Positions 1 through 2,036 of a DNA stretch of 64,000 nucleotides are shown here, piece by piece. Position 1 is the stretch's first letter. Every line of letters begins with the position of its first letter. Origin of the DNA: Niabella soli DSM 19437 (lineage in GTDB: Bacteria > Bacteroidota > Bacteroidia > Chitinophagales > Chitinophagaceae); contig NZ_CP007035.1 in assembly GCF_000243115.2 (NCBI RefSeq), positions 1,922,001-1,986,000 on the forward strand, written 5' to 3'. The notes below the pieces were generated by a model. It was not told the DNA's origin, did no database searches, and saw nothing but the letters and a program-made list of their open reading frames with translations. A program made the position numbers and the translations under genes.

Positions 1-71
1 TCAAGCATACCGGTGCGGCAATAGTTGGCCAGCGCCGATTGGTATTGTTGTGTGGTGTTACGCAATTGCAT
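1..71 (-). CDS. HvfC/BufC-like partner protein of the MNIO enzyme (N-terminal fragment)
   Basis: Only the first 23 codons lie in the window (MQLRNTTQQYQSALANYCRT and on), and the gene runs off the left edge. The ATG (complement of 69–71) overlaps the stop of the upstream MNIO gene by 14 nt, which suggests translational coupling. In hvf/buf-type clusters the gene straight after the DUF692 enzyme encodes a DUF2063-type partner that delivers the precursor peptide to the enzyme. The visible N-terminus, a short amphipathic start with Q-x-x-LANYCRTG, fits such a protein, but the call rests mainly on position. Frame and start are clear; the family is inferred. Confidence 0.55.
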   Translation of the reverse strand, partial: MQLRNTTQQYQSALANYCRTGML

Positions 72-897
72 AATTTTTGGTCTGCAAAGCAGCCTGTTTA
101 ATCCTGTTTAACCGCTCCATTTCCGCCTGCAGTTCGTTCAACTGCGGAAAATTAAAATCCCGTTCCAGCAGCACCGGAACATCCCGTTGCAATAATTGCA
201 TGGCAAAAGCATACAGATCGTATACCGGGTCAACAATAGCTTCCCCGTGTGTATCGATGATCAGGGTGTCGGATACCTGCTCATGACCGGCCATGTGGAT
301 ATAGGCCACGCGATCCATCGGCAACTCTTTTAAAAAGGCTTTGGGATCATACTGATGATTAAATCCGTTTACATAAACATTATTCACGTCCAGCAGCAGA
401 TCACAATCTGCTTCTTCAAGAATAGCGTTTATAAAATCGATCTCTTTCATTTCCGGGGCTACCGGTGTGTAGTAGCTCACAATTTCAATAGCGATCCTTC
501 GTTCCAGCAGCTCCTGGATGGTCCGGATCCTGGCAGCAACATGTTTCACTGCATCATTTGTAAAGGGTATGGGCAGCAGATCGTATAAATGCGCATTATC
601 GCATTTCGCGTAACTCAGGTGTTCGGAATAGATCCGGGCATTGGTTTCTTTCAGAAATATTTTTACTTTCTTCAAAAATTCAAAATCCAGCTCGTCGGGG
701 CTGCCAATAGACAACGACAGCCCATGGGTAAAAAGCGGGTAGCGCTCCAATACTTTATTGAATTGTTTTCGCCAGTAGCCCCCTACCCCGACCCAGTTCT
801 CCGGAGCCACCTCCACAAATGCCGGTTTTAAGACATCACTGGTTAAGAATGCTTCGCCAAAATCTTTCCGATACCCTATCCCTACCATTAATGACAA
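58..897 (-). CDS. MNIO (DUF692) family multinuclear iron-dependent peptide-modifying enzyme
   Basis: A 279-aa protein of DUF692, the TIM-barrel family now called multinuclear non-heme iron oxidative enzymes (HvfB/BufB, MbnB relatives). Likely metal ligands are in place: H58 in FTHGLSLSIGS, E92-H93 in SEHLSY, E139, D170 and N173 in DVNNVYVN, H181, H201 and H205 in HMAGH, D215 and H217 in DTHGEA, and E245 in LLERDFNFP. Length is normal for the family. Characterised members convert Cys residues of a ribosomal peptide into copper-binding groups (oxazolone/thioamide or thiooxazole), usually with a partner protein. Here a Cys-rich precursor lies 59 bp upstream and a probable partner gene overlaps the stop. 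The cognate substrate is therefore probably the 957–1292 product. Enzyme family is near certain; the chemistry is inferred. Confidence 0.9.
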   Translation of the reverse strand: MSLMVGIGYRKDFGEAFLTSDVLKPAFVEVAPENWVGVGGYWRKQFNKVLERYPLFTHGLSLSIGSPDELDFEFLKKVKIFLKETNARIYSEHLSYAKCDNAHLYDLLPIPFTNDAVKHVAARIRTIQELLERRIAIEIVSYYTPVAPEMKEIDFINAILEEADCDLLLDVNNVYVNGFNHQYDPKAFLKELPMDRVAYIHMAGHEQVSDTLIIDTHGEAIVDPVYDLYAFAMQLLQRDVPVLLERDFNFPQLNELQAEMERLNRIKQAALQTKNYAIA

Positions 898-956
898 ATT
901 TTAAAATAACGGCAGGTGCCTAAAAATCGACCGTTAAACACCCGCCGGTTAAAAAT

Positions 957-1292
957 CTATTGCCCGTCTTTGGGTTTTGTTGTCGTATCTTTCTTCTTCA
1001 TTGATTTCTTTCCTGTTTTTGAACCACATTTACCATCCCCGCACTTACCATCACCACACTTTCCTTCTTTTCCTTTTTTCATAGTGCTATCGCTCTTGGC
1101 TTTATCTCCGCCGCACTTCAGTTCAAAATTTTTTGCAGCTCCCTTTTTTTCCAGGAGGTTGGTACGCATCTCTGCCCCCGTACCCAGCGAACTGTAATTA
1201 AATAATCCATTAGCATTTGCAGAAAATCCGGCCGCAGCAATAATCGCTCCGGTAAGTAAGGAACCTTTTACGATACTTTTTTTCTTTTCCAT
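957..1292 (-). CDS. HvfA/BufA-like Cys-repeat precursor peptide
   Basis: A 111-aa exported protein with a signal-like hydrophobic segment at residues 8–27 (KGSLLTGAIIAAAGFSANA). It has a linker and then a low-complexity C-terminus with one KCGG and three near-identical repeats, EGKCG-DGKCG-DGKCG, followed by a Lys/Thr-rich tail. EGKCG-type repeats in a DUF2282-like secreted peptide are the known substrate signature of HvfB-type MNIO enzymes, whose products bind copper. It lies directly upstream of the MNIO gene on the same strand. Four Cys are available for modification. It is longer and more lysine-rich after the repeats than a minimal precursor. The role as copper buffer or metallophore is inferred from the family; the repeats are directly visible. 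Confidence 0.8.
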   Translation of the reverse strand: MEKKKSIVKGSLLTGAIIAAAGFSANANGLFNYSSLGTGAEMRTNLLEKKGAAKNFELKCGGDKAKSDSTMKKGKEGKCGDGKCGDGKCGSKTGKKSMKKKDTTTKPKDGQ

Positions 1293-1592
1293 TTTTTAAG
1301 TTTTATTGTGTTAGAAATGTTTACAGGTGAATAAACAAAGGGCCATAGGCATAACAATGCATTTCTATAAAATTAGAGAAATATCAGGCAAAAAATAAAA
1401 ATCCTGTTTGTTAAATTATTTTTTCACAGGCATGGAGTTATCCCATTACACAATCAGCACATCGGAATATCAAAAGTAGCGCCAGGCCCCGGGGAGGGTG
1501 AGAAGATAACAAACCGCGCCCGAAAAACTAGACATCCCCGAATTTCCGGTTTCCCGGCTATCGATCCGGTCCGCTTTAATACGGCCGTCCGG
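1293..1592. other. Intergenic spacer upstream of the precursor gene
   Basis: A 300-bp gap between the DoxX gene and the Cys-repeat precursor, both read leftward. It is AT-rich near the precursor start. I see no ORF of credible composition, no clear terminator and no confident promoter box. The gap suggests the precursor may have its own promoter rather than relying on readthrough from the DoxX gene. Confidence 0.4.
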
Positions 1593-2036
1593 TTATTTTT
1601 CCACTTCCCCCGCATGGATCGCGTCCATAGACCAGGCGCCATTACCGGCGATCAAAAAATAGATCAGCAGCAACAGTACCACAATTGCCAGTAAAAGATT
1701 GGAAAAGGGTTCCATTACGTTGCCGAAAAAAGGTGCGAAGAAGACCGCGCCGAGCAGCACCGGGAGTTGCATTATGCAGGCAGCCCGGGTCAACCACCCG
1801 AAAGTAAGCAAGATACCGCCCAGGATATGCGCTCCCACTACATAATGGCCCACCAGCAGCTCTGAAAAGGAGCCGAACGACATCCACCCTGGCATCAGGC
1901 TCATAAGGCTGGTATAATTCTGCGCAAACTGGACACCTTTGTAAATCAGGAATAATCCCAGACTGATCCGCACAAGATCCATCCATTTTGGATGGTGTGT
2001 TTCACCCCAGTACTCAATACGTTGTAGTGTTGTCAT
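1593..2036 (-). CDS. DoxX-family membrane protein, HvfD-like
   Basis: A 147-aa integral membrane protein with about four hydrophobic segments: residues 18–36 (VRISLGLFLIYKGVQFA), around 60–80 (VVGAHILGGILLTFGWL), 87–102 and 112–129. The N-terminal segment with the KGVQF turn, and the G-x-x-LTFGWLTR loop, are typical of DoxX/DoxD-like quinone-associated proteins. DoxX proteins are the fourth component (HvfD) of many hvf clusters. That context and the shared strand suggest this protein belongs with the MNIO and precursor genes 300 bp downstream. Its exact role in those systems is unsettled. The family call is good; linkage to the RiPP pathway is inference. Confidence 0.75.
   Translation of the reverse strand: MTTLQRIEYWGETHHPKWMDLVRISLGLFLIYKGVQFAQNYTSLMSLMPGWMSFGSFSELLVGHYVVGAHILGGILLTFGWLTRAACIMQLPVLLGAVFFAPFFGNVMEPFSNLLLAIVVLLLLIYFLIAGNGAWSMDAIHAGEVEK

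Follow-up and report, generated by a model that had tools for sequence, protein, structure and literature searches.

In nontypeable Haemophilus influenzae, the hvf operon (HvfA/B/C/X; product, oxazolin) runs under the sigma factor RpoE2 and a 67-residue anti-sigma factor, HrsE, and this pair governs msrAB as well as the hvf-type operon under hypochlorite (PMC7907618). In Neisseria, SigE and its anti-sigma factor MseR govern msrA/msrB together with an operon that comprises the sigma and anti-sigma genes, three hypothetical genes, and a DoxX gene (PMC3240639). Fontiphorin (fon) and other captophorins, which their authors describe for Pseudomonadota (PMC13097082), have EGKCG sites and a multinuclear non-heme iron-dependent oxidative enzyme (MNIO) with a DUF2063 partner. 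About 2,000 Buf_EGKCG/oxazolin proteins, mostly from Pseudomonadota, are reported in PMC12452194, which names sigma and NrsF genes for Buf1, not Buf2, and molybdopterin-oxidoreductase genes in a few EGKCG clusters. Here, we examine a locus of this type from Bacteroidota. It lies at the left end of a 64,000-nucleotide stretch of the Niabella soli DSM 19437 genome (the window; bases 1922001-1986000 of a one-contig genome of 4,697,343 bases).

We conclude, at a probability of roughly 85%, that the window holds an hvfABC-type operon from a Bacteroidota/Ignavibacteriota branch of the EGKCG (oxazolin, captophorin) ribosomally synthesized and post-translationally modified peptides (RiPPs), and that it makes a secreted, modified, copper-binding peptide. 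This conclusion draws on the identities, order, and conservation of the genes and on the few amino-acid changes that separate them from their nearest relative. By analogy with the characterized homologues HvfBC and FonBC (PMC13419390, PMC13097082), HvfC would bind the precursor leader and enable the iron center of HvfB, which would turn the Cys of (E/D)-x-K-C-G sites into 5-thiooxazoles. The modified peptide would then exit via Sec and bind copper outside the cytoplasm. In a limited literature collection, we found no account of a Bacteroidota branch of EGKCG RiPPs. The main text of PMC12452194 contains no word starting "Bacteroid," the tree in PMC13097082 is restricted to Pseudomonadota, and the ChrH-type MNIOs of Bacteroidota are a different family (PMC12636315).

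Core genes and their precursor

The genes are read from the minus strand in the order DoxX gene, precursor, MNIO, HvfC partner. The gene for the HvfB-family MNIO (DUF692), a putative RiPP maturase, occupies 58-888, with ATG at 888 as its likely start; the listed open reading frame (ORF) opens at a TTG at 897. Its product matches the Pfam MNIO family (E 2.4e-98), scores 388.8 bits on the NCBIfam HvfB model (NF003818; cut-off 360), and stays under the NCBIfam cut-offs for BufB, ApyH, ChrH, and MbnB. Three other products were considered and rejected: bufferin 1 or 2 (no DUF2282 match; BufB 265 bits vs 310), chryseobasin (ChrH 52.4 bits vs 600), and methanobactin (MbnB 46.3 bits vs 325). The best relative of solved structure is PDB 3bww (E 2.2e-74), which is 72.4% identical to HvfB (PMC13419390). 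Residues N175, D242, and H244 of HvfB are essential according to the same paper. In the window enzyme, D215 and H217 keep this D-x-H spacing and N172/N173 belong to a DVNN motif (numbered from the TTG). No fewer than 80 of the 81 MNIOs aligned agree at each of these positions, and we infer that D215, H217, and N172/N173 correspond to D242, H244, and N175.

The HvfC partner starts at window base 71 and overlaps the MNIO ORF, which ends at 58, by the 14 nucleotides originally noted. Its 5' end (1-71) lies within the window, and the whole gene, encoding 249 residues, runs leftward to genome base 1921322 (6322-7071 of L002, our locus number for this region). The original prediction had turned on whether leftward extension would make this gene a DUF2063 protein. 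The partner passes Pfam DUF2063 (E 2.2e-18; 66.7 bits) and NGO1945_C (48 bits) and lies above the NCBIfam HvfC cut-off (NF050145; 143.1 bits vs 142), which decides the matter. Also borne out are a Cys-repeat precursor, an MNIO, and an overlapping partner on one strand (ORFs 957-1292 and 58-897, partner from 71) and, by Pfam and NCBIfam scores, the presence of hvf-type genes in a member of Bacteroidota. Convergent with HvfC is a MiaE-type tRNA hydroxylase gene (Pfam 144 bits; L002:5664-6272).

The precursor gene (957-1292) encodes an HvfA-like protein of 111 residues. A hydrophobic N-terminus, assigned as signal-like by eye only, is followed by LFNYSSLGTGAEMRTNLL, ELKCG, then EGKCG-DGKCG-DGKCG, and a Lys/Thr-rich tail. 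The leader motif reads LGTGAEMR, and Cys60, Cys79, Cys84, and Cys89 stand in (E/D)-x-K-C-G sites. The predicted repetition of Cys sites is therefore present; the predicted uniformity is not, as one site is EGKCG, two are DGKCG, and ELKCG lies upstream. The closest named relative by MNIO is Niabella sp. BIN26 (95% identity). Synonymous/nonsynonymous codon differences between the two, as raw counts from this one pair of genomes, are 31/5 for the precursor (111 codons), 72/15 for the MNIO, and 76/42 for HvfC, the least constrained of the three. The 31/5 count makes the precursor ORF look like a real gene.

A search of named genomes with the window MNIO gave 142 relatives, of which the best 80 were kept; with the window, these make 81 loci (L047-L066 are excluded from all counts). 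The 80 are nearly all from Bacteroidota or Ignavibacteriota. Entries named Beijerinckiaceae, Patescibacteria, and Saccharibacteria fall among Bacteroidota rows of the MNIO tree (midpoint-rooted, for drawing only) and are probably mis-binned contigs. HvfC lies downstream of, and overlaps, the MNIO gene in all 81 loci, and an ORF with at least two KCG units is found near the MNIO in 76 (window included). In L086, L090, L140, and L142 the precursor has altered sites (KCS, KCA, KCV), and L113 is cut by a contig end. The distribution is patchy: HvfB exceeds its cut-off in 6 of the 147 genomes searched from the family and in 7 of the 395 from the phylum, each figure including the window genome. When the window locus is taken with twelve HvfB loci from these sets, 11 of the 13 have an ORF with at least two KCG units. 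Many Bacteroidota genomes carry further MNIOs (L009-L021, L029-L046) scoring about 60-270 bits on the HvfB model.

Seventy-nine precursors could be aligned (L113 has none, and that of L076 was lost in ORF selection). Their leader consensus is LGSGxEVR, and the invariant positions are one Cys and the initial Met. Among 393 core Cys residues (beyond residue 40), position -3 is acidic in 378, position -1 is Lys in 342, and position +1 is Gly in 373. At E up to 0.1, 70 of these precursors match the NCBI KCGExKCG model and 67 the NCBI HvfA model, the window's not among them; a Pfam scan of two related precursors gave no match. The Lys/Thr-rich setting, originally thought unusual, is the rule in this group, and the window precursor is a typical member despite its HvfA scores. 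Like H. influenzae hvf, the window has HvfB- and HvfC-type genes and a Sec-type precursor with EGKCG-like sites; unlike in H. influenzae, precursors of this group have long Lys/Ser/Thr/Ala linkers and the LGSGxEVR leader motif. Several natural variants stand out. L086:7657-7944, with one KCG and one KCS, and L090:7538-7927 have KCS in place of KCG at some sites. In L140:7597-7926 (Chitinophaga varians) and L142:7478-7927 (C. fulva), which sit on a long MNIO branch, Ala, Ser, or Val replaces the post-Cys Gly (e.g., HKCAQGKCAEGKCVG); these variants are suited to tests of enzyme specificity.

Probable sigma-factor control in the relatives

Recurrent neighbors were found by clustering neighboring ORFs, with truncated contigs kept in the denominators. 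Within 3.5 kb, a gene for an extracytoplasmic function (ECF) sigma factor lies upstream on the same strand in 60 of 81 loci, a short anti-sigma-like protein on either strand in 61, and a DoxX gene, mostly directly 3' of HvfC, in 54. Two DoxX proteins of relatives were scanned, and both pass HvfX (127.9 and 130.1 vs 80). In Pfam, sigma region 2 passes and region 4 falls narrowly below its cut-off (25.0 vs 25.7). Across the 38 anti-sigma proteins that were aligned, a C, H-x3-C-x2-C pattern is invariant. Three anti-sigma proteins score 31.6, 44.7, and 52.9 on the NCBI anti-sigma model (cut-off 50). In a Pfam scan, two anti-sigma proteins fell in no family and a third matched zf-HC2 below cut-off (19.4 vs 22.2). 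Foldseek, queried with an anti-sigma structure model, returned nothing with E of 0.001 or less. The top three hits of a second structure comparison are chains of sigma/anti-sigma complexes (Z 6.7, 6.5, and 3.4), values that are weak for a helical protein.

Upstream of the precursor, the relatives share a two-box motif, tTGTmAGGw, 13 bases, sCGwCTAt (TGTmAGG-N15-CGwCTA). A fitted matrix, derived from the scored sequences themselves, exceeds the 99% point of shuffled sequence in 49 of 59 sigma-adjacent loci and 9 of 20 others. A held-out matrix was built from 11 sites in 30 loci and applied to the other 49, with 664 other upstream regions as background. It passes the 99% point in 22 of the 30 loci with sigma and in 6 of the remaining 19 and exceeds the background maximum in 12 of the 30; the holding-out applies to the matrix only, the pattern having first been spotted across all loci. 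In 25 of 28 matches, the site lies 61-81 nucleotides upstream of the listed precursor start. Nine motif loci have no adjacent same-strand sigma gene, and two of them, L084 and L089, carry a divergent pair beside the precursor. The idea that the pair always lies elsewhere in such genomes was abandoned: anti-sigma matches occur in 4 of 7 (one with stop codons) vs 3 of 9 motif-less loci, with no clear difference (L067, with just 52 nucleotides before its precursor, is omitted).

A second copy of the motif lies within the sigma gene, about 100 nucleotides before its end, in codons for C-K/Q-E/D-L ... S-N. Its second box stands a median of 78.5 nucleotides upstream of the first Met of the anti-sigma protein (40 loci measured). 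The inside copy scores at least 19.1 bits in 40 of 58 sigma genes; among the other 18, fourteen score 11.7-18.7 bits and four have no copy (at most 4.4 bits; L087, L088, L098, and L112). When each gene was recoded synonymously 60 times, no recoding scored as high in 29 of the 40, and one to three did in the other 11; for the inside copies of L075, L076, and L101, 12 to 14 of 60 recodings did as well. The held-out matrix passes in 41 of 58 sigma genes vs 4 of 247 other genes of like length. A codon test covered 163 columns in an alignment of 51 sigma genes that share less than 85% identity. The strongest bias falls on four codons, all of them in the boxes: AAG (37/37; expected 9.8), TCG (20/25; 3.1), TCT (24/38; 6.6), and TGT (47/50; 25.5), with z from 10.5 to 6.2. 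The fifth, AGG (z 5.9), lies beyond them. The variable fourth base is the same in both copies in 44 of 45 loci (33 A/A, 11 C/C, 1 A/C), an agreement much of which related species have in common. A change from CK to CQ in the sigma factor would parallel one from TGTAAGG to TGTCAGG in the precursor's upstream copy.

The possibility that the sigma genes are themselves preceded by the promoter was also considered and rejected, since the motif is above threshold there in 1 of 60 (L087); this arrangement, inside sigma and before the precursor, may differ from that in Neisseria. Where the motif does precede a sigma gene, at L087 and L182, the inside copy is missing; L182 is a Pedobacter sigma/anti-sigma pair on a contig other than that of its cluster. 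With the motif before the precursor and inside, not before, the sigma gene, sigma activity would seem to boost the anti-sigma factor and the RiPP while leaving the level of sigma alone. No sigma gene that contains a promoter for its anti-sigma factor turned up in the limited literature collection; sigV is an ECF gene whose promoter lies within the gene upstream of it (PMC13171946). On sequence evidence, we consider it probable that the ECF sigma gene of the relatives carries its own promoter in the codons of its DNA-binding region, that protein and promoter co-evolve, and that Niabella shed this control module and kept the RiPP genes.

An exact search for TGTmAGG-N15-CGwCTA in 20 genome entries, two pairs of which are apparently the same genome, gave 34 sites vs 13 for a reversed control pattern, so single extra sites may be chance. 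The window genome and one other have none. By coordinates, 20 of the 34 sites are at clusters, and the other 14 fall in twelve regions. In six of these regions the next gene resembles one for a secreted methionine sulfoxide reductase, MsrB, as called by Pfam for three of the six proteins and judged from sequence for the rest. The six cases, four from Chitinophaga and two from Ignavibacteriota, are not all independent because the four Chitinophaga are related. At L179, a site accompanies a b561-type cytochrome, a molybdopterin oxidoreductase, and MsrB, and a second site faces a Met-rich 99-residue protein and a redoxin. This Met/Lys-rich, secreted-type protein near the redoxin (L179:1693-1989; Chitinophaga rupis) is perhaps a copper or hypochlorite sink. 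Further sites precede a redoxin (L181), the L182 pair, and an ArsR-MerT-HMA operon resembling heavy-metal transport (L184, Hydrotalea flava); that at L185 has no evident sense. A second sigma/anti-sigma pair with an inside copy is found at L183:2304-3154 (Sediminibacterium magnilacihabitans), with no RiPP cluster in the 4.5 kb around it.

To judge from the promoter sites, then, the operon and methionine sulfoxide reductase genes seem in most relatives to be under joint control of an ECF sigma factor and its anti-sigma partner of the zinc type. Such a module fits the Haemophilus RpoE2 and Neisseria SigE pattern. Like H. influenzae hvf, the relatives have HvfX, an ECF sigma factor with a small anti-sigma factor, and methionine sulfoxide reductase as a likely co-target, and in Neisseria msrA/msrB is likewise a co-target (PMC3240639). 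Bufferin 1 of Caulobacter, under SigF-NrsF, shares ECF control, MNIO, DUF2063, and DoxX and has a YedY-type gene in its regulon (PMC3511200); it differs in its DUF2282 precursor and in an anti-sigma factor with six predicted membrane helices rather than the short zinc type.

The probably reduced Niabella locus and competing readings

Unlike H. influenzae hvf, the window has neither HvfX nor the sigma pair, which adjoins the cluster in most relatives. The intergenic stretch upstream of the precursor (1293-1592, minus strand) is without the motif of the relatives: its best scores are 0.5 bits (fitted) and 3.7 bits (held-out), and the background 99% point is 13.3. Several results weigh against an hvf-type assignment. 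The window genome has no HvfX above cut-off (best 41.4 bits), no anti-sigma match at E up to 1, and no close sigma relative (best match 79 bits). The HvfC score clears its cut-off by 1.1 bits only. The precursor scores below the cut-offs of both HvfA models (11.8 vs 95 and 10.5 vs 19.5), has no match at E up to 0.1 to the NCBI KCGExKCG or HvfA model, and has longer linkers between its sites than HvfA, as judged by the HvfA motifs in PMC13419390. The adjacent DoxX protein scores 10.9 bits on the HvfX model (cut-off 80). We treat HvfX as optional because the core genes occur "in various combinations" (PMC12452194, section 15).

The window genome either lost or never had sigma control, and loss is the likely course. 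As a control, the anti-sigma alignment was run on 12 genomes that carry HvfB-type loci and matched in 11, a partly circular result because at least 7 of those genomes supplied alignment rows. In the MNIO tree, the two Niabella rows belong to a clade of 24, of which 16 have a sigma gene, making loss in Niabella likely, not proven. Over the tree, sigma presence is only weakly clustered: it needs 16 changes, against a mean of 18.6 after shuffling, and 32 of 500 shuffles needed no more. A straightforward history of loss is therefore not demonstrated, and this account was set aside.

The strongest competing reading, which we consider unlikely, keeps (E/D)-x-K-C-G sites as the target of this MNIO branch and gives it another product or fewer modified Cys, with a role that lies more in buffering thiols or hypochlorite than in binding copper. 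MNIOs perform several chemistries (PMC13419390), and the motif sites of the relatives before methionine sulfoxide reductase and redoxin genes point to oxidative stress. However, the window MNIO lies above the HvfB equivalog cut-off, and characterized PME1-type MNIOs with EGKCG substrates yield 5-thiooxazole (PMC13097082).

It is less likely still that the DoxX gene (1593-2036, minus strand; 147 residues) functionally replaces HvfX in the Niabella lineage. The gene shares the strand of the cluster, sits 300 nucleotides upstream of it, and belongs to the same broad Pfam family (DoxX, 34.4 bits, above 23.6). Against this, its HvfX score is far below cut-off, and the hhalign probability to the HvfX alignment is 39%. 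Moreover, of the 146 other family genomes searched, 45 contain a homologue (E up to 1e-5). Two of these 45 hold HvfB above cut-off, with the homologue distant from HvfB in both. On these grounds, the identification of this gene as HvfX, the fourth hvf gene of the original prediction, was rejected; it belongs to a different DoxX group and is probably a neighbor outside the cluster.

That the locus is a decaying remnant, stripped of sigma factor, anti-sigma factor, and HvfX and no longer regulated or useful, would agree with these absences, with the lack of the exact motif, and with the failure to find HvfB above cut-off in two other searched genomes of the genus, but is very improbable in view of three intact core genes whose synonymous differences from BIN26 exceed the nonsynonymous ones.

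Implications for EGKCG RiPPs

With an hvfABC-type operon as the preferred reading of the window, EGKCG copper RiPPs, described mainly from Pseudomonadota (PMC12452194, section 15), gain a large and coherent second home. The new branch has a leader motif of its own and supplies some 80 natural variants of the substrate, among them the two from Chitinophaga in which the post-Cys Gly is replaced. Its promoter sites would link the cluster, in this distant group, with the repair of methionine sulfoxide, a connection that Haemophilus and Neisseria also show. The putative promoter within the sigma gene amounts to a feedback design that can be tested directly and in which codon choice is seemingly constrained by gene regulation.

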